A stretch of 64,000 bases of DNA from Synechococcus sp. PCC 7502. Lineage in GTDB: Bacteria > Cyanobacteriota > Cyanobacteriia > Pseudanabaenales > Pseudanabaenaceae. The stretch lies in contig NC_019702.1 of assembly GCF_000317085.1 (NCBI RefSeq), positions 3,006,394 through 3,070,393 of the forward strand, written 5' to 3'. Each line of letters begins with the position of its first letter. Within the stretch, counting starts at the first letter, position 1. Shown in pieces: positions 42,239 through 54,131 of the stretch. The position numbers were made by a program, and so were the translations under genes. The notes beneath the pieces were generated by a model. It was given only the letters and a program-made list of their open reading frames with translations. It searched no databases and was not told where the DNA came from.

Positions 42239-45172
42239 TTAAATTACCTGCTGCAGAAGTTGTCGCACTTCTTTTAATAAATCTTGGCGGTTATATGCTC
42301 CTTTTTGCATTATTCTTTCTGCGTAGCTATTTAAGTATTGGCGATCAGATTCTGTTAAATCTTTAGCCGTAATAACTATGACAGGAATTTCTCGCCAGTG
42401 CTGATGTTGGTGCATTTGATTAATTACCTCAAACCCATCAACTTCAGGCATCATTAGGTCAAGTAAAATTAAGGCTGGTGTATTTTTCTCCAGTTGAGCT
42501 ATAGCATTACGTCCATTATCTGCTTCGATGACAATCCAATCCTCTTTTTCTAATTGTCGCCGCATCAGACTACGATTATTGGCGTCATCATCAACCACAA
42601 GAATTAACCGAGAAGATAATTTAGACTTATATCTATCCAAAATTTCCTTAAGTTGTTCCTTTTGGATTGGTTTAGTTAGATAACCTGTGGCACCTAGGGT
42701 ATAGCCAATATTTTGATCATCCAATACCGTTGCCATAATCACAGGAATGGAAGCAAGTTCTGGATCGGATTTGAGCCGAGTTAGCACCGCCCAGCCATCT
42801 ATTTTGGGCATAATTACATCTAAAATAATCCCATCAGGATGTTGTTCCTTTGCCCAGCGCAATCCTTCTTCAGGGTTAGTAGTAGCAATAATTTCAAATC
42901 CTTCAGGTTCAAGAAAGCTGCGAATCATGTCATGGGTGGTGGGGTCATCATCAATTACTAAGATTTTTTTGCCATGAAAGACTGCGGATACGCCAGCGAT
43001 CGCTATATTAGAATCGTCCAGATTATTTTTAGTGGGATCAATAACTTGGGCAGGTAACTTAATGGTAAAAGTTGTACCAACGTTGAATTCACTCTCAACA
43101 AAAATCGCTCCTCCCATCATTTCCGTAAATTTTTTGGTAATTACTAAGCCAAGTCCTGTACCTCCATATTTGCGCGTGGTGGAAGCATCAGCTTGAGAAA
43201 ACTCTTGAAATAGCTTACCAACTTGCTCTGGAGTCATGCCAATTCCAGTATCTTGAACTGTAAAGGTAATCCAATCTTGTTGATTTTGGTTTTTTTGATT
43301 TTGGACATAGCGATTAATGCTAAGGGTAATTGTGCCATTGTGGGTAAATTTACTAGCATTACTAATCAAGTTAAATAGGCTTTGTCTAACTTTAGTCACA
43401 TCGGCAAACATGATGCCTAAATCATCACCGCAGCTTAATTTTAGAGTATTGTTATTTTTTTCAGTTAAGGGCTGGATTGTGGAAATAATTTCTTCTAAGA
43501 CTGGACGAATTTCAAAGCTTTCTAAATATAAATCCATTTTCCCCGCTTCGATTTTGGATAAATCTAAAACGTCATTAATTAACTCAAGTAAATGCTTGCC
43601 TGCGCCTTGAATTTTTTTGAGGTCTTTAATAAATCCCGCTTCACCAATTTCTTCAGCCTCCTCTTGCAGCATTTCACTGTAACCAATAATGGCATTCAGG
43701 GGAGTGCGGAGTTCATGGCTCATGTTAGCCAAAAATGCACTTTTAAATTTGTTAGCTTCTTCTGCTTGTTCCTTAGCTTCCTTTAATTCACGGGTGCGTT
43801 GATCAACTCTTATTTCTAATTCCTCATTAGTTTTAGCGAGGTTATTAAAGGATTCCTGTAACTGCTGAGACATGTGATTAAAAAGGTATGCCAGACGACC
43901 TAATTCATCTCTGCGATTAATATCTAATTTAATATCAAGATTTCCTTTGGCGATCGCTTCTGTAGCATCCATTAAATGATCCAGAGGTGCTGAAATTTGA
44001 CGACGCATAATATAAATTAAAATCAGAATTTCCGTAAATAGTGACAGAAACCCCAATAGAACAATCAATTGGGCTGTATCAATCGCCTTTTTTTGTAAAA
44101 ATGCTTGAGGAATAACAGTGACTAAATACCAATTAGGTCCATTAATTTTAGTAACTACAAGATATTCATTATTTTTGACATTATTAATAATTTCATTATC
44201 ATTTTTTTCTGTAGTAACAGCATTAAAAATATTAATTAAATTTTGTTTACCACTTTTTAAAATATTGAAATCACCATTAGTTTTAGTGATCTGTTCCATA
44301 AATTGAGGATGGGCAATTAAATCACCATTAGCCTGAAAAATGAGATTATAGGTTCCTTCTAAACTGACATTAATAGTTCTTGATCGTAGTTCATCAATAA
44401 AAATATCATGTCCAATAGTGCCAATATGTTTGCCATTTAAATCAAATGGAGTTACACAGGAAACCATCCACTGTTTAGCAACTTGATCATAATAAATACC
44501 AGTCCAAACAGTTTCTCTTTGAGGATTATTAATCTTCCTTGTAATTTGAAAAGATTCGTCATCAGTAACCCGAAAAGCTTTTGTTGATGGAGCATTTTGT
44601 GCCCAAGCATAGCTAGGCATATAGATAACAATCCCATTTTCTGGAACTTGAATATAAGTATTAACAAAGTTTTTCTGCCAAGCTGGTCCAAAGTTTTTAA
44701 GCAGATCAAAATAGATAGAAATACGTTGTTTCATCTCTGCATCAATCTTAACATTTGCTCCTAAAAATACACCCGAAGTCCATTCAAGATTAAATTTTTC
44801 GGGACGATTTCGAGTTGTGCCATCGAGCATAGTTATAAACTCTTGATCAAAGCTTCTACTAAAGCTAGTTTGGGAGTTTGTTTGAGAATTCTCTTTAAAT
44901 GTTTTTAATAGGGCATTTTTAAGAATATTATTATCATCTTTTGCTCCAACAAAAACCACACTTTCTCGCTTTCCTCGTAATTTAATATATTCATCAGTTC
45001 TAGCCAATTCTTCATTGGTAATTTTTTGAACTAGATATAAATAACCACAGGCTGTAGAGGCAAGAATTACCGCACCAATCCCTAGCGCAGTTTTAATAAG
45101 GGTACTGCGAATTAAGGATTGTGTTTCCTTGGGATAATTTTGCTGATTAGGAGAAGTATTAGAGTTACTCAT
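42239..45172 (-). CDS. Membrane hybrid histidine kinase (dCache-HAMP-HK-REC-REC)
   Basis: A 977-residue sensor. Membrane segments lie at about 26-47 and 367-389, flanking an extracytoplasmic double-Cache-like region ([24 protein letters not shown] near 251-262). A HAMP linker follows (about 390-445), then HisKA with [20 protein letters not shown] and phospho-His 486, a HATPase with [10 protein letters not shown] and GTGLGLVIT, and two receiver domains ([13 protein letters not shown] with [23 protein letters not shown] with [10 protein letters not shown]). It likely senses a small molecule outside the cell and phosphorylates the single-domain regulator after it. The ligand is unknown. Confidence 0.93.
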
Positions 45173-45370: not shown

Positions 45371-46306
45371 ATGTTTATGAATAACAAATTAAATAACAAA
45401 TTTAAATCCTTTAATTCCTTATTGCTCAAGTTGGGATTTGCTATTTCTCTAAATCTAGTTGTTACTTTGTTAGGGGATCATGGCTTTGCTTTAGCTACCC
45501 CTAATGAGGCACAATTGGCAAATACCTTAAATAGACAGCGATCTAATTTTATTTTGTGTCCACAGGACTGCGATCGCTCTGAGTTTTATATTGGTTATAA
45601 CAGAACTAATACGGTGCGTTTAGGGCAGAAGGTAGTGTCTTCAGTGATCACTAAAACTAAGTTTCTTCTGAATATCGCAAATCTAATGTTGCAAACTAAG
45701 CTGCCTAATGTGGATGTGGCGACAGTTGATAATCGTGATGGTAATTTTGTTAGCTCTATTCACAGAATTGAAAGTTTACAGATTGGATTTTCAGAAAAAA
45801 GCGAGTTATTGCAAGTTTATACTCGAATAGCTAACACGGCGGCGGAGGCAACTGTTAAGTTATTTTGGGGAGATACGTTTATAATCACTTCGTCACAATT
45901 GCCCAAGGGGACACCAGTGAAAGTCATTGTGGAAAGAGCTTTAGGTGGGTTTGGTAATCCTGTTACGGAAAATGCGTACTATCAGGCGATCGCTAAAACC
46001 TATGTTAGTCAAAGGCAGATTAGTAATTTAGATTTTTCCGTTACCAAAAAACCAGGAACGGGGGAAACAGACCAAGTTTCAGGCAAAGATACAATTAGCT
46101 ATATTTTAGATACAAAAGTCGGAGAGAAGTTTACGATCGAGTCTTCTTTGCAGGTATTAGATGGCTTAAAGGGAAGTAATTCTGGCAACCAGATTCTAAA
46201 TGGGGCTGACTCAGTTATGTATAAAATTAATCTGACTGATGAATTTAGGAAAAATGCCTGCTTAAAATCTGCGAGTAAGACCTTTGTTTCAGGGAGTTGT
46301 CAATGA
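45371..46306 (+). CDS. Secreted hypothetical protein
   Basis: A 311-residue protein with a signal peptide (LGFAISLNLVVTLLGDHGFALA, cleavage likely after ALA near residue 42). The mature part is rich in polar residues with a Cys pair (CPQDCDRSEF) and a C-terminal CLKSASKTFVSGSCQ that could close a disulfide. I do not recognise the family. Its 3' end overlaps the convergent NRPS-like gene by seven bases. It is divergent from the hybrid kinase, so could be under its control, which is speculation. Confidence 0.6.
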   Translation: MFMNNKLNNKFKSFNSLLLKLGFAISLNLVVTLLGDHGFALATPNEAQLANTLNRQRSNFILCPQDCDRSEFYIGYNRTNTVRLGQKVVSSVITKTKFLLNIANLMLQTKLPNVDVATVDNRDGNFVSSIHRIESLQIGFSEKSELLQVYTRIANTAAEATVKLFWGDTFIITSSQLPKGTPVKVIVERALGGFGNPVTENAYYQAIAKTYVSQRQISNLDFSVTKKPGTGETDQVSGKDTISYILDTKVGEKFTIESSLQVLDGLKGSNSGNQILNGADSVMYKINLTDEFRKNACLKSASKTFVSGSCQ

Positions 46307-49300
46307 ATAGAAATTGGGTTGGGCGATCGCAAATTAGTTGGTAAATTCATGGGCTTAAATATATTTTGGAGTAAATCATGGACTGAAGGACAGCTAATTC
46401 CTAGTTCATCTAGGTCAGAGGATGTTTGGTTTTTCGTAAAATGAAATGCCCCGAGAGAACGTTGCACAAAATTAGGATGGGCTAAGGGTAAGATTAGGGG
46501 ACTCAGGGAAATTCCCACATTTTGGCTAATTAATTGGTCGAGTTGTCGGTACCAAGTTTGATGAGATACCAGTTGCAGAGGATAGCCCCGTTGATTGAGC
46601 CACTGGACTAATTCAATCCACGAAATTGGTTGAGTATTTACTAAATGAAAGGCTTTTCCTGTGCTTCCTTTTACCTGAGAGAGTGTGACAATTGCCTGAC
46701 TTACATAATTAACTGGTACAAGATTAACACAAGCCTCTAGGTTGGGAGCAGTTCCCATTTGGATGCAACTCTCTAACATTTTGGCGATAAAGCCATTGGA
46801 AATCAAGCCCGATGCCACGGTACCGATAATATTGCTGGGACGGTAAATGGAAATAGGGAGACTTCGGTTATAAGCTGCCATCACTAATTTTTCGGCGATC
46901 GCCTTACTTTCTGCATAGCCACTACATAAATGCACTTGTCTAATCGCATCCTGTTCTGTAATTTTTCTGATGCCAGTGGAGGGAAAAACATCTACAGTTG
47001 AAACAAAATGAACTGGTTTGATTCGATCTAAGCAGGCAAGACGGAGAACTTCTAGGGTGCCTTTGACATTAGTTTCCCTTAACAGCGTATAGGGATAGAC
47101 AATATTTACCCAAGCTCCACAGTGATAAATTTGATCAATTCTCTTAGTTAGGTATTCATATTCTTGGGACGACAACCCTAATCTTGGTTCGGCTAAATCT
47201 CCTAAAACGGGAATAATTCGATCTTGCCACTGTTCCTGATATAGACACTGCTGCCGTAAATGAGTTTCAATGCGGGATAAGCCTACCTCTACAGTTTTCG
47301 CGCGAACTAAGCAATAGATTTGAGCAGAGGTTTGCTGTAATAGCTCATGGAGTAAATGCACTCCTAATATGCCTGTTACCCCAGTTAAGAGAATTGCTTG
47401 TGGTAAATCTTGAAGTGAAATGAGATCAAAAGATGATTGGGGATTAATATCTGAGGGCAGGATGGCATCATCAGGATAATCTAGGGTTGAGTGGGATGAC
47501 AGGAAATGATTATTTTGATTATTGTTGTGATTAAAAGAAGCGATCGCAGTTGCTAAGTTAGCGATGGTTGGCTGCTCTAGGAAATAGGCAAAGGATACTT
47601 CGATCCCAAATACTTTAAGAAGGCGATACAACATCTGGGCAACTAATAGAGAGTCACCACCTAAATCAAAGAAAGAATCTGCAATCCCAATTTTCTCGGT
47701 TTTTAAGAAATGCTGCCAAATTTTGACTAATTGACTCTCTAACGATGTATTTGGGGGAATATAAGTATCTAATGCTGTCTTTTGCCAATTCGGTAGAGGT
47801 AAAGCATTGCGATCTATCTTCCCAGTCGGGGTTAACGGAAATTGCTCCATCACCATAAAGTAATATGGGATCATGTAATGGGGCAGTTTTTCCTTGAGAA
47901 AGTTTTTGATATGCTGTAGAGAAATTTTAGAACTAGGCTCATTGGGAATGATATGGGCAATTAGCTGTTGCTCTTCTATCACAAATTCTTGAGACACGGA
48001 TTCTTGAGAAAGGGACTGTACGGAGACAATTGCTTGATTAATATCTGAATTTTCCTCTAATACTGCTTCGATTTCCCCCAATTCGATCCGAAATCCTCGT
48101 AACTTAACTTGATGATCGATTCTGCCTAAAAATTGATAATTGCCATCGGGCAACAACACTCCTAAATCACCCGTTTTATATAATCTTGTCCCAAATTGAT
48201 CTGCGAAGGGATTAGGGATAAATTTTGCCTCGGTAAGTTCAGGACGGTGGAGATACTCCCTTGCCAATCCAGCCCCCGCAATATAAATTTCGCCTTCAGT
48301 ACCTTGGGGTACAGGTTGATAATCGGAATTGAGCAAGTAAATTTCAGTTTCGGCGATCGCTTTGCCAATAGGTGGAATGCCCGTAAAATCCTTAGAAATA
48401 AGGGCAACCGTAGAATAGGTCGTATCTTCTGATGGTCCATAGAGATTAAAAACCTGTTGAATATGTTCTAACTGATAAAGACCATGTACAAGCTTTGCCG
48501 ATAGAGCTTCTCCCGCTAAATTGATAGTAAGAACTGAAGTGGGAATCCCTTTAATCTTTAAAAGAGTAGCGATTGCCGAGGGGACTGTATTAATTAAAGT
48601 AACTGCATTAGCAAAGGGAAGATGGGGTAACTGTAAAGCATTATCAGCCAGAATTGCCTTCCCACCACAACTTAAAGTTACAAACAATTCAAAAATGGAT
48701 AGATCAAAACAGATGGAAGTGGAAGCTAAAACCCCTGCCAATGTTGATTGAGGATAGAAACTTTGTGCCCAGTTAATAAATGCCACCGTACTGCGATGTT
48801 CGATCGCTACGCCCTTCGGTTTACCCGTGGAGCCAGAGGTATAGATTATATATGCCAGATTTTCGGATGTGGCGATTGAGGGTAAGTTATCAGTGGGAAA
48901 CTGGGTGATCGCTTCCTGTTCTTGATCAAGACAAATCAATGGTACGGAAATTTTAGGGAAGAGACCTTGTAAGGACTTTTGAGTAAGTAAGCAAAAAATT
49001 CCAGCATCATGGATTGTAAAATTAAGCCTCTCTTGGGGATAACAGGGATCAAAGGGAACGTAACCACCACCTGCTTTAAGAATTGCCAACAAAGCAATCA
49101 CCATCTCGGCAGACCGTTCTAGGCAGACTCCAATCAGCACTTCCTGTTTAACCCCCAGAGATTTAAGGTAGCTGGCTAGTTGATTAGCTCTTTGATTAAG
49201 TTCTTGGTAGGTGAGACTTCGATTTTGATCAATAACAGCGATCGCTTGAGGTTGTTCCGAGACTTGCTGCTCAAACAGGTGATGAATACAAGAACTCCGA

Positions 49301-49308
49301 TTTTCCAT
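46300..49308 (-). CDS. NRPS-like enzyme: adenylation - PCP - thioester reductase
   Basis: A 1002-residue three-domain protein. The adenylation domain has YTSGSTGKPKG at 156-166, NLYGPSEDTTYSTV near 288-301 and LYKTGDLGVLLPDG; the carrier has LGGDSLLVAQ with the pantetheinylated S553; the reductase starts with LLTGVTGILGV at 641-651 and has a SGYAESKAIAE active site. No condensation domain is present, so it would activate one acid and release it as an aldehyde or alcohol, like carboxylic acid reductases. The pocket residues read as D-L-F-N-N-A-L-T-Y-K, which resembles an alanine code. It is downstream of the STAS gene. Confidence 0.9.
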   Translation of the reverse strand: MENRSSCIHHLFEQQVSEQPQAIAVIDQNRSLTYQELNQRANQLASYLKSLGVKQEVLIGVCLERSAEMVIALLAILKAGGGYVPFDPCYPQERLNFTIHDAGIFCLLTQKSLQGLFPKISVPLICLDQEQEAITQFPTDNLPSIATSENLAYIIYTSGSTGKPKGVAIEHRSTVAFINWAQSFYPQSTLAGVLASTSICFDLSIFELFVTLSCGGKAILADNALQLPHLPFANAVTLINTVPSAIATLLKIKGIPTSVLTINLAGEALSAKLVHGLYQLEHIQQVFNLYGPSEDTTYSTVALISKDFTGIPPIGKAIAETEIYLLNSDYQPVPQGTEGEIYIAGAGLAREYLHRPELTEAKFIPNPFADQFGTRLYKTGDLGVLLPDGNYQFLGRIDHQVKLRGFRIELGEIEAVLEENSDINQAIVSVQSLSQESVSQEFVIEEQQLIAHIIPNEPSSKISLQHIKNFLKEKLPHYMIPYYFMVMEQFPLTPTGKIDRNALPLPNWQKTALDTYIPPNTSLESQLVKIWQHFLKTEKIGIADSFFDLGGDSLLVAQMLYRLLKVFGIEVSFAYFLEQPTIANLATAIASFNHNNNQNNHFLSSHSTLDYPDDAILPSDINPQSSFDLISLQDLPQAILLTGVTGILGVHLLHELLQQTSAQIYCLVRAKTVEVGLSRIETHLRQQCLYQEQWQDRIIPVLGDLAEPRLGLSSQEYEYLTKRIDQIYHCGAWVNIVYPYTLLRETNVKGTLEVLRLACLDRIKPVHFVSTVDVFPSTGIRKITEQDAIRQVHLCSGYAESKAIAEKLVMAAYNRSLPISIYRPSNIIGTVASGLISNGFIAKMLESCIQMGTAPNLEACVNLVPVNYVSQAIVTLSQVKGSTGKAFHLVNTQPISWIELVQWLNQRGYPLQLVSHQTWYRQLDQLISQNVGISLSPLILPLAHPNFVQRSLGAFHFTKNQTSSDLDELGISCPSVHDLLQNIFKPMNLPTNLRSPNPISIH

Positions 49309-49399: not shown

Positions 49400-49720
49400 T
49401 TAATCCTCATATTTATCCACAAGAATCACGCTCTGAGCAAAGCCTGTTTTTTCCAGAGTTTCTAAAATAAATTCCTGCGCTCCCACTACATAAATATCCA
49501 CATCTACTCCCATTTTTTGCTTAGAGAAAAGTAAGACCCGCAAACCTGCACTAGCCATATATTCTAAGTCATGGGCAAATAAAACTAATTTTTTTACCTT
49601 ATGTTCGGCTGCCTTCTCAACTTCTACTTTTAAAACTGGGGCTGTTGCCGCATCTAATTCTCCTGCTAGGGTAATCTTGGCGACATCATCAATAATTTCT
49701 AAAGTTGCGGTAAAAGTCAT
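49400..49720 (-). CDS. STAS-domain anti-sigma factor antagonist (slr1859-like)
   Basis: A 106-residue STAS protein: AKITLAGELDAATAPVLKVE near 14-33 and LEYMASAGLRVLL near 52-64. The Ser in MASAG is residue 57, the phosphorylation position of partner-switching antagonists. From memory, Synechocystis Slr1859 is phosphorylated on the same position by the kinase encoded in the icfG cluster. It follows glgX by 51 bp and is itself followed by the NRPS-like gene. Its partner kinase is not in the window. Confidence 0.92.
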   Translation of the reverse strand: MTFTATLEIIDDVAKITLAGELDAATAPVLKVEVEKAAEHKVKKLVLFAHDLEYMASAGLRVLLFSKQKMGVDVDIYVVGAQEFILETLEKTGFAQSVILVDKYED

Positions 49721-49771: not shown

Positions 49772-51889
49772 TTACTTGCCGACTAAAATCACCACAGAGC
49801 GATCGCCAACTAATAAACCCGATTGATGATCTAGCACAGGTTCAGTCCCCGGTAAATAGCTTGAAGGGAAAATTGCACCCGTATTAGCAAATATATGCCA
49901 CTGCAAAGACTGAGGTAAGCTTGGGATCTCAAACCACTGCGTTTGCCAATGCATATTCATCGCCACATAAATATAATTATCCTCGACGGTTCCCCCTTTA
50001 GCATGTTTTCCACAGAGCATAAAAGCGATCGCCCGATTCTCCTCTGACCAGTCCGCATTCCAGGCTTTAGTACCATGCCAAGTAATATCAGCATAACCAC
50101 TACCCACATAATCTTGATTACGGAAATGGTTAGGATTACGCAGAACGGGATGCGATCGCCGAAAAGCTATACAGTGTTTAACAAAATCTAATATGTCAGA
50201 ATTTTTAGTTTGCAGATGCCAATCCAACCAACTTAGTTCATTATCGTGACAGTAGGTATTGTTATTTCCGTTTTGAGTGCGACCAACTTCATCACCCATG
50301 AGCAACATCGGTACACCTTGACTAACCATAAGCATGGCGATCGCATTTTTGATCTGACGACGACGCAGGGCATTAATCGCTACATCATCGGTTGCTCCTT
50401 CCCAACCACAGTTCCAACTATCGTTATCATTACTACCATCATTGTTATTTTCACCATTGGCTTCATTATGTTTGTGGTTATAGGAAACCAAATCCATTAA
50501 GGTAAAACCATCATGGGCAGTAATAAAATTAATTGAAGTAGCAGGAGCCCTTCCCGCCCAGGCATAGAGGTCTGGAGAACCTTGTAAACACTGAGCAATC
50601 TGTCCTACGGTGCCATCTCCCTTAAGAAATTTACGAATGCCATCTCGGTACTTACCATTCCACTCCGCCCAACGACCGTAGGCAGGGAAAGAACCCACTT
50701 GATATAATCCACCTGCATCCCAAGCTTCGGCAATCAGTTTACACTTTGCTAAAATTGGATCAAAAGCCAACGACTCTAATAATGGAGGATTTGCCAACGG
50801 ATAACCCCAAGGGTCTCGTCCCAGAATCGAAGCCAAATCAAACCGAAATCCATCAATATGATACTCAGCTGCCCAATAGCGTAAACAATCTAAAACTATA
50901 TTCCGCACGATAGGATTATTACAATTAATCGTATTACCACAACCACTAAAGTTAAAGTAATAACCCTCTGGAGTCATCATATAGTAGGTCTTATTATCAA
51001 TACCTCGAAAAGAAATAGTCGGACCACGCTCATTTCCCTCTGCCGTGTGGTTAAAGACCACATCCAAAATTACTTCAATCCCATTTTTATGCAGTTCCTT
51101 GACAAGGTTTTTTAACTCATCAACCTGCATGCCAAATTTACCCGTAGCAGCATAACCCGCCTTCGGGGAGAAAAATCCTACGGTACTATAGCCCCAGTAA
51201 TTATAGAGAGTTTCTCCTGTTTGGGGATTGGGACGGGAATTTTCAAATTCATCAAACTCGTAAACAGGCATTAACTCAACGGCATTAACACCCAATTCTT
51301 TTAGGTAGGGAATTTTATCGCGAATGCCCGCAAAGGTACCTCGATGATTTTTCTTAATTCCTGAAGATTCATGGCGCGTAAAGCTCCGCACGTGCATCTC
51401 GTAGATAATTTGATCCTCTGGTGGAATCTCTAAGGCACGGTCATTGCCCCAATCAAAATCATCAAAGGCAATTCTGCCCCGATGGTGATAAATATCCTCC
51501 CAATCAGGTGTTACCCCCCACACATCTCGCCCACCAATAATTTTGGCGTAGGGGTCTAGTAAAATTTTACTAGGATCAAACCAATGCCCCTGCTGGAAAT
51601 TATTAGGACCATCCATGCGATAGCCGTACTCTAGATTTTCATAATCAAGATCAAATACAACCATGCAATAGACATTCCCAATCCGAAACTCATCGGGGAA
51701 AGGTATCTCTGCTAAGGGGGCTTTAGCATGTTTTTTAAATAAAACTAAAGTACAGGAAGTAGCATGACTGGAGAAAATGGAAAAATTCACACCCCCAGGA
51801 ACTATAGTTGCTCCAAAGGGTTGTGGCTTTCCTAAGCGTAATTTAAAGCTCTCATAGGAATGAGTTGGATGAATATCAATACGTTCCAT
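49772..51889 (-). CDS. glgX: Glycogen debranching enzyme GlgX (isoamylase type)
   Basis: A 705-residue GH13 enzyme that cleaves alpha-1,6 branches in glycogen. An N-terminal CBM48-like part starts GKPQPFGATIVPGGVNFSIF; the catalytic barrel has DVVFNHTAEG, GFRFDLASILGRD with the nucleophile Asp, LIAEAWDAGG with the acid Glu, and FITAHDGFT. It sits between two STAS genes, the same order as in the Synechocystis icfG cluster as I recall it. Short spacings (16 bp to the upstream STAS gene, 51 bp to the next) imply one operon. Regulation by the STAS proteins is suggested by context only. Confidence 0.96.
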   Translation of the reverse strand: MERIDIHPTHSYESFKLRLGKPQPFGATIVPGGVNFSIFSSHATSCTLVLFKKHAKAPLAEIPFPDEFRIGNVYCMVVFDLDYENLEYGYRMDGPNNFQQGHWFDPSKILLDPYAKIIGGRDVWGVTPDWEDIYHHRGRIAFDDFDWGNDRALEIPPEDQIIYEMHVRSFTRHESSGIKKNHRGTFAGIRDKIPYLKELGVNAVELMPVYEFDEFENSRPNPQTGETLYNYWGYSTVGFFSPKAGYAATGKFGMQVDELKNLVKELHKNGIEVILDVVFNHTAEGNERGPTISFRGIDNKTYYMMTPEGYYFNFSGCGNTINCNNPIVRNIVLDCLRYWAAEYHIDGFRFDLASILGRDPWGYPLANPPLLESLAFDPILAKCKLIAEAWDAGGLYQVGSFPAYGRWAEWNGKYRDGIRKFLKGDGTVGQIAQCLQGSPDLYAWAGRAPATSINFITAHDGFTLMDLVSYNHKHNEANGENNNDGSNDNDSWNCGWEGATDDVAINALRRRQIKNAIAMLMVSQGVPMLLMGDEVGRTQNGNNNTYCHDNELSWLDWHLQTKNSDILDFVKHCIAFRRSHPVLRNPNHFRNQDYVGSGYADITWHGTKAWNADWSEENRAIAFMLCGKHAKGGTVEDNYIYVAMNMHWQTQWFEIPSLPQSLQWHIFANTGAIFPSSYLPGTEPVLDHQSGLLVGDRSVVILVGK

Positions 51890-51905: not shown

Positions 51906-52238
51906 CTAAGCTAAAGTGGCTAAGCCCTCTTCTTGGCTTGATGTGGTAATAAAGAAATCCAAAAAACCTGTGACGGACATGGTGTCAACTAATTCTTCAC
52001 TTAACCCAACTAAGACCACCTTTCCTTCTTTGGTTGTGATTTGTCGATACAGGGAAAGGAGGGTGCGTAAGCCTGCACTAGACATGTAGGGAACCTTAGT
52101 CATATCCAATAGTAAGCGAATATGGGGCTTCACCAACTCAGACACAAACTTAGTGACATCGGGGGCAGTACTGGCATCAATATCACCATCTAGCTCGACC
52201 ACCTGAATTTCTCCTACGGATTTTAGTTTAATATCCAT
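51906..52238 (-). CDS. STAS-domain anti-sigma factor antagonist (slr1856-like)
   Basis: A 110-residue STAS protein: IQVVELDGDIDASTAPDVTK near 11-30 and VPYMSSAGLRTLLSLYRQ near 49-66. The key Ser is S54, matching the site I recall for Synechocystis Slr1856. It would be kept inactive by phosphorylation and freed by an IcfG-type phosphatase. It lies between the disrupted epimerase gene (49 bp after its end) and glgX. It is similar to but distinct from the other STAS protein, so the two are old paralogues. Confidence 0.92.
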   Translation of the reverse strand: MDIKLKSVGEIQVVELDGDIDASTAPDVTKFVSELVKPHIRLLLDMTKVPYMSSAGLRTLLSLYRQITTKEGKVVLVGLSEELVDTMSVTGFLDFFITTSSQEEGLATLA

Positions 52239-52287
52239 TCAGCATATCCTTTTAGTGTGGTTACTCTTAGAAATTAAGTAGTAGAAA

Positions 52288-54131
52288 TTAAGCAGTGGGA
52301 ATAATTTGAACCTTAATTTTCACTCGCTCCTGAGTATCAGGAAGTTTAACGGTTAATCCCAACGCATCAAAGTCGGCATAGGGTTGCCCATCAATTTCTA
52401 CAGAGCTAATTTTAATACTACCAGGGGGCAGAATATCTGGAGAAACTCGTAAAATGCCATCGGGGAAACCTTTAGGAAATGGTTTGAAGTATAAATCTAA
52501 AGGCTGTTTGGTAATCAGAAGATTAGTATAAACTGCGGATAAATAGCATAACTCCGTAGAATGATAGGCTGACATGGAGTGAGACCCTTTATATCTCTCT
52601 GTTCCCATCAAAAATGGCGTACCATTTGCCAGAACATTAAAATAAACAGCACCGTCATCATGGTCGAGGAAGAAGGCATTATAGAATGCCGCGACCTCAC
52701 GGGCATGTTTTAGATAATCTTCACTAGGCAGTAGTCCATGGAGGATTAAATAGGCAAGGACAGCCTGTTCCTGTTGCCACCAAGCTTTACGATCATGCCA
52801 GACAAAGCTAAAGAAATCTTCACCTGGTTGTTTGGTGCGTTCAACCACGTCGTACCAGCCTCCCCGTTGGCGATCGCTACCTGCTTCTGGCATTAGTTCG
52901 GCAATTTTTTGAGCAAGGGACACATAGCTATCCTTGGGTTTGAGACTTTGCATCCGCATTAAATTCCAAGCGATTTTGAGGTTATGTCCAACTACAGCCC
53001 GATTTTGCTGCCATCCCCAAGATTGATCTTTATCCCAATTTTCAAAGAATTTTTCTTGGACAAACGGGCTATTTTCATAGTCTTGGAAATACTTTTCAAT
53101 GGTGTCAAAGGTGTCTTCCAACATATCTGCATATTCTTGACGACCAGTGCCTAAATACAGATTTATTAAATAGGCAGGAGCGTGATCACCGACAGAATTC
53201 CAGTTTTTACGCGCCTGATTCCGTCCCATAGATGCCGCCCGTGGGTCGAGAGTCAGAGGATCAATATGGGAAAAATAGCCGCCTTGTTCTTGATCTAAGT
53301 AAAACTTATTAAATAGATCGATAGTCATCTCCGCATCTTTTAAAATGCGTGGATCACCTGAAATTCGATAGGTTTGATTCGATAGGTTTGAATAGGTCCA
53401 GCCAAGGCATAGATTTGTTCATAGGCGGGGATGCAATCGTAGTCATCATCAAATTCAGAGGTTAACAACTTTTGTTCTCGATTTCCCGTTACCTTAACGC
53501 CGTGATACCAGTAAATTAGGTCTTCATCTGGATCATAAAACCGCATGTGGTCGCGTAGATATTCTGTCCCCAGTTCCGCCCCTTCTAAAAATCGATCTTC
53601 GCCAGTTAATAGAAATGCCGAGGCAAATCCATATACCAATCGAGAAACTGTATCTGTTTCCTGTAAGTAGTCGTCCTTTTGTTTCTCCCCCGTTAACTTC
53701 AGCATTGTGCGATATTCTCGGTAGTCAATGGGCTGATTTGGGTAATTAAATTGCCACTTTAGATATTTGTCGGCGATCGAACGGATTTGCTTAATCCACC
53801 AGTCTGGTTCTTCATGGCGGTACTTATCAGGGGCATCTCCGGGAAAAACAAGGGATTTAGCTTCAAATTTATGATCGTCTCCCTTGGGGTAAAAAACACC
53901 ATAGGCAAAAATGTGTTGACCGGGCTTCAATAACTCGTTTAACTGTCCAGTGGCATCAATGTACCCTTCCTCTAAGTTTTGACTAATGCGACCATAGGTG
54001 GTTGAGCCAAGGTAGGCTGTATATTCACGTCCTTCAGAAGTTTTGATACCGAAACTTTTATCACTGCGATTAAAGTGAGTAACATAGCCTGTGATAAGGT
54101 CTGAAAAAGAAAAGGGAATCTGACTTGGCAT
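52288..54131 (-). pseudogene. AGE-family epimerase/isomerase split by a 14-bp tandem duplication (slr1855-like)
   Basis: Two frames together make one AGE (N-acylglucosamine 2-epimerase-like) protein. The N-terminal part (54131 to about 53340) ends out of frame after AGPIQTYRI; the C-terminal part continues with DLFNKFYLDQEQGGYFSH and DRKAWWQQEQAVLAYL. At the junction ATTCGATAGGTTTG is present twice in tandem (53363-53376, 53377-53390). Removing one copy restores one frame of 609 residues through ISGDPRILKDAEMTIDLF. Such a change is recent by appearance and could revert by slippage. The domain order and the operon with glgX and the STAS genes match the icfG-type cluster. Confidence 0.88.
53363..53390. 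repeat. 14-bp perfect tandem duplication
   Basis: ATTCGATAGGTTTG occurs at 53363-53376 and again at 53377-53390. Fourteen is not a multiple of three, so it shifts the AGE-epimerase frame; losing one copy repairs it. Confidence 0.95.

Follow-up and report, generated by a model that had tools for sequence, protein, structure and literature searches.

In Synechocystis the icfG cluster connects sigma-factor control with the use of inorganic carbon and of glucose (PMC12329169). The cluster of Synechocystis PCC 6803 (slr1856-slr1861; PMC12329169), a partner-switching carbon-regulation operon, contains genes in the order STAS, isoamylase/GlgX, STAS, and the same order is found at the locus described here, which lies in the 64 kb stretch of the Synechococcus sp. 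PCC 7502 chromosome that we analysed (the window). Null alleles caused by frameshifts have become fixed in laboratory substrains of Synechocystis, examples being those of glcP, which encodes a glucose transporter, and of spkA (PMC10068330).

Organization of the locus

The genes that adjoin the broken AGE-family gene of the window are all on the minus strand. They encode a STAS-domain anti-sigma-factor antagonist (51906..52238, in an Slr1856-like position), a glycogen debranching enzyme/isoamylase, GlgX (49772..51889, Slr1857-like position), and a second STAS-domain protein (49400..49720, Slr1859-like position). The preliminary description of this DNA had considered the flanking operon genes to be intact, which is right for STAS, GlgX and STAS. 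It had also called the locus an icfG-type cluster. That name fits the type, in that the STAS-GlgX-STAS genes directly adjoin the AGE gene, but icfG itself and the anti-sigma gene are not part of the cluster, which in this genome consists of the AGE-STAS-GlgX-STAS block only. Neither a PP2C phosphatase (IcfG) gene nor an anti-sigma kinase gene adjoins the block at the window locus. The nearest counterpart of the IcfG phosphatase, with 85% identity over the PP2C part, is encoded at C3:1675765-1676598, approximately 1.4 Mb from the cluster, and the nearest counterpart of the anti-sigma gene, with 82% identity, lies at C3:421311-421721, also far from the window. The locus thus differs from the Synechocystis icfG cluster in having its PP2C and anti-sigma genes elsewhere in the chromosome and in having a broken AGE gene upstream.

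Comparison of 85 AGE loci indicates that the linkage itself is widespread. In 84 of the 85 the AGE gene has a STAS gene after it, and GlgX is present in 83. Of the same loci 66 include an anti-sigma kinase and 45 an IcfG-like PP2C; contig ends clip some of them. The AGE-STAS-GlgX linkage spans Cyanobacteria, Chloroflexota, Bacteroidota, Pseudomonadota and others, and the full order AGE-STAS-GlgX-STAS, often accompanied by an anti-sigma kinase and a PP2C, is seen in several phyla. In a genus-mate of the window's cyanobacterium neither an AGE nor a GlgX match was found. The PCC 7502 genome is unusually small among Pseudanabaenales, and SAG 2387 is named as the sister of this strain (PMC12961181).

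Several observations were made on the surroundings of these genes. The nearest homologue found for the AGE gene comes from a genome of another genus in the same family (G015), and the PP2C domain at C3:1675765-1676598 is fused to an N-terminal part unlike that found in G015. An 88% DNA match at 43726-44030 was considered as a possible degraded icfG gene within the window and was rejected, as it belongs to an intact hybrid histidine kinase of 977 aa. Over approximately 300 bp that surround the HAMP region, this kinase has 88% identity to the IcfG-like gene in G015, and outside this stretch the two differ far more, which points to domain shuffling. Contig C77 of G015 carries blocks that are 82-91% identical to at least two widely separated regions, the window at 49.4-54.2 kb and C3:1.66-1.68 Mb, together with an anti-sigma gene that matches a third region of the window's chromosome; these matches may be due to horizontal transfer or to misbinning of the contig. 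Positions 46300-49308, immediately downstream of the second STAS gene, encode an intact A-PCP-reductase protein of 1002 aa (AMP-binding, PP-binding and NAD_binding_4), which possibly makes a small aldehyde and for which a long match was found in none of the other clusters examined.

The duplication and the interrupted reading frame

As the preliminary description had reported, a 14 bp sequence is present twice in tandem at positions 53363-53390. Read on the plus strand, the 14-mer is ATTCGATAGGTTTG, the two copies (53363..53376 and 53377..53390, within the gene on the minus strand) are exactly identical, and the base at 53391 also matches, as the 29th. The second copy is without a counterpart in any homologue examined. 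Within the window no other perfect tandem repeat reaches a period of 10. Among 60 dinucleotide-preserving shuffles of the window the mean number of perfect repeats of period 10 or more was 0.12, with none having a period of 14 or more, and the perfect tandem 28-mer is therefore beyond chance expectation. A second 14 bp tandem duplication, near-perfect (about 93% matching) and diverged, lies 1.1 kb away in the AGE-STAS spacer (52268..52296, minus strand); the corresponding sequence is single-copy in G015.

The two perfect copies lie within a coding gene and have a period that is not a multiple of 3. The AGE-family gene is broken at this point, as had been proposed, being split into frames of 263 and 346 residues. 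The 5' fragment (53340..54131, minus strand, read from 54131 to 53340) encodes the N-terminal beta domain and the first barrel helices, crosses the repeat out of frame, gains the 11 residues KPIEFQVIHAF and terminates, so that its 263 aa end in GPIQTYRIKPIEFQVIHAF. The 3' fragment (52288..53328, minus strand) comprises 346 aa when counted from the first in-frame ATG, and its match to the Pfam GlcNAc_2-epim model spans profile positions 152-328 only. When one repeat copy is deleted in silico, the stop-free stretch across the repeat lengthens from 376 codons to 615. The one-copy version had been predicted to encode a protein of 609 residues, and the intact orthologue in G015 is exactly 609 aa in length.

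Family and fold of the interrupted protein

The protein belongs to the AGE superfamily, as judged both from PF07221 (GlcNAc_2-epim), for which the 3' fragment scores 39.7 bits and an intact homologue 51.5 bits against a curated cut-off of 23.4, and from its fold. Foldseek matched AGE-fold enzymes with E values down to 3e-13, the best solved structural matches being the Runella glucose-2-epimerase (8h1k) and cellobiose 2-epimerases. With these enzymes it shares, by sequence and predicted structure, the same (alpha/alpha) barrel, but it is about 200 residues longer than the solved AGE enzymes, has about 19% identity to them and carries an N-terminal beta domain to which no Pfam model matches. 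Assignment to a functionally named subfamily (GlcNAc 2-epimerase or cellobiose 2-epimerase) was not obtained, as the NCBIfam equivalog scores are 24-27 bits compared with cut-offs of 600-800.

A close homologue was examined as an AlphaFold model (mean pLDDT 82), in which the N-terminal beta domain leads into a helical barrel. In this model the break (residues 248-253) falls between barrel helices 233-250 and 253-270, and for this reason neither fragment is predicted to hold the whole barrel. A backup AGE paralogue was considered and rejected, since no AGE-family match besides this gene came up when the Pfam model was run against the genome. The Synechocystis counterpart of the gene is presumably the one named Slr1855. 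Among the papers searched this term occurs in two, once in each and under titles on other subjects, and the icfG literature describes the regulatory genes; the function of the AGE protein from STAS-GlgX clusters seems unstudied.

Comparison with homologues

The nearest homologue, that of G015, has 91.6% DNA identity to the window gene, carries one repeat copy and is intact. At the aligned position six more whole-genome relatives are likewise single-copy. Scanning named genomes yielded 80 AGE loci with 66-82% identity in the best segment. An insertion at the repeat site is found in none of these 80 and in none of the seven whole-genome relatives, and a homologue sharing the duplication, which the earlier description had named as evidence against its reading, is thus absent from this set. 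A single full-length open reading frame is present in 79 of the 80 named-genome homologues; the remaining one, on a metagenome-assembled contig, is broken near residue 513, away from the repeat site.

The break sits inside the near-invariant sequence YEQIYALAGPxQTYRxTGDP, a segment with some of the strongest conservation in the family. Since 14 bp do not make up whole codons, the frame is lost within this motif. The location of the break bears on whether the two frames might still yield a working protein, either by frameshifting in their overlap or as a two-piece enzyme restarted at the ATG at 53328. Both frames are open together for about 75 bases and the ATG of the second lies 12 bases downstream of the stop of the first, an arrangement that would suit such a rescue. 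However, the overlap lacks an X XXY YYZ slippery heptamer, on which ground programmed frameshifting was rejected, the restart product would be without the 16 residues that follow the break, the barrel is cut in a motif conserved in every homologue, and none of the homologues examined is split at the same point. Given the lack of a slippery heptamer and the position of the break in an invariant motif, we regard translational rescue as extremely improbable. The function of the AGE protein is instead predicted to be lost, a prediction which follows from the break within the modelled barrel and within this motif.

Age of the break

Comparison with G015 gives dN/dS values of 0.043 before the break and 0.041 after it. 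The intact neighbouring genes have values of 0.038-0.086 in the same comparison, a range that includes both halves of the AGE gene. Among 240 columns with conservation in 95% or more of homologues, none shows a deviation private to the window gene, and the five deviations that this gene does have at conserved columns are all common to G015. By these measures both halves of the gene show undiminished purifying selection. A gene long in disuse would be expected to have gained changes at conserved sites, and on a time scale of that kind the duplication is accordingly best regarded as recent. The preliminary description had thought that the change looked recent; the undiminished selection in both halves supports this view and indicates that the break is very recent. 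The data appear to fit years in culture and thousands of years in nature alike.

The same observations may be turned to a different account, in which the real sequence has one copy and the second is an error of assembly or consensus, since every homologue is single-copy and the gene is without decay. We consider this unlikely because the whole repeat, at 28 bp, is shorter than ordinary reads, and an exact duplication is not something that an assembler would readily create. Furthermore, the assembly comprises 3 contigs and 3.58 Mb and is 99.93% complete, and the diverged 14 bp duplication 1.1 kb away, with its single copy in G015, shows that such events are real in the lineage.

Tandem repeats elsewhere in the chromosome

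Repeats were surveyed in 800 kb of the same chromosome in addition to the 64 kb window, about 864 kb in all. The 800 kb contain 72 perfect tandem repeats with a period of at least 9. Over the approximately 864 kb, the period is divisible by 3 in 18 of the 19 such repeats that lie well inside open reading frames. The exception is a perfect 14 bp repeat at C3:1911037-1911064, where the gene frame is intact with both copies; the gene encodes a phycobiliprotein which, from a reading of its sequence, looks allophycocyanin-beta-like. Three more repeats that were flagged automatically are positioned at gene edges. The AGE gene is the only gene broken by a short tandem duplication in the sample. A genome-wide set of switches was rejected, as the flagged repeats of this survey are at gene edges or in an intact frame. 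It would seem that short tandem duplications recur in the lineage and are tolerated mostly where they are harmless.

These results are relevant to the proposal that the duplication acts as a reversible on/off switch, in which the two-copy sequence would be the OFF state of a contingency locus and loss of one copy by slippage would restore the epimerase in a part of the population. Such a mechanism has precedents: spontaneous tandem duplications in pneumococcal capsule genes are reported to cause reversible phase variation (Waite 2001, 2003, cited in PMC4022640), and the same is described for a tetranucleotide repeat of icaC in S. aureus (PMC4117637). The identical copies, the out-of-frame period and the complete lack of decay would all fit a gene that is ON often enough for selection to act. 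Against this, there are two copies only, no repeat tract is found at the site in relatives (80 of 80 homologues are without an insertion), no comparable gene-breaking repeat occurs elsewhere in the approximately 864 kb, and the product is an intracellular enzyme-like protein of a carbon-regulation operon, not a surface structure. For its longest (9 bp) insertion PMC4022640 expects reversion at no more than about 1e-5, and recency alone accounts for the lack of decay. We therefore consider a contingency locus to be quite unlikely, and it is more doubtful still that the duplication represents one state of a reversible switch for an AGE enzyme linked to a partner-switching carbon-regulation operon. 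By analogy with the pneumococcal genes, reversion of the duplication is conceivable; a selected or working phase switch is possible but unsupported.

Origin and consequences of the allele

The preliminary description had left a choice between a fixed loss, a strain-level mutation, an artefact and a reversible switch, and among these options the comparative data favour a recent null mutation at the level of the strain. In our view it is quite probable that the sequence records a recent spontaneous 14 bp duplication which is a null allele of the sole AGE-fold gene found in the genome and which most likely arose in the strain or in culture. Replication slippage or misaligned repair would have produced the tandem duplication in the AGE gene. 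Translation would then leave the frame in the conserved motif, add 11 wrong residues and stop, giving a 263-residue fragment in which the N-terminal domain is followed by no more than the first helices of the (alpha/alpha) barrel, while the remaining 346 codons would at best be translated via re-initiation. The allele is thus expected to be null for the epimerase/isomerase-like protein; the STAS-GlgX-STAS genes downstream are intact. Slippage between the identical copies could in principle delete one of them and restore the gene.

If this is correct, the strain probably represents a naturally occurring knockout of a little-studied gene with recurrent linkage to STAS and GlgX, and it would provide a convenient comparison for learning the role of the AGE protein in the operon. 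It also serves as a warning that those who study carbon use in this strain may be working with a mutant without recognising it. The type of mutation is ordinary, and we regard it as a strain-level event, possibly self-reverting, rather than as a new biological system.

Comparison with known systems

The frameshifts described in laboratory Synechocystis PCC 6803 (glcP, spkA and slr1916; PMC10068330) are the same kind of culture-level null mutation that we propose here, and they include carbon-use genes. The substrain mutations are mostly 1 bp insertions and were confirmed between substrains, whereas the present case is a 14 bp duplication seen in one consensus sequence. The pneumococcal genes cap3A, cap8E and tts (Waite 2001, 2003, cited in PMC4022640) are reported to resemble the AGE gene in that a short duplication within the open reading frame shifts the frame and inactivates a gene of sugar metabolism in a precisely revertible manner. 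They differ in that both reversion and phenotype are reported to have been observed in pneumococcus, while the gene reported here is represented by one consensus sequence and encodes a cytoplasmic AGE-fold protein.
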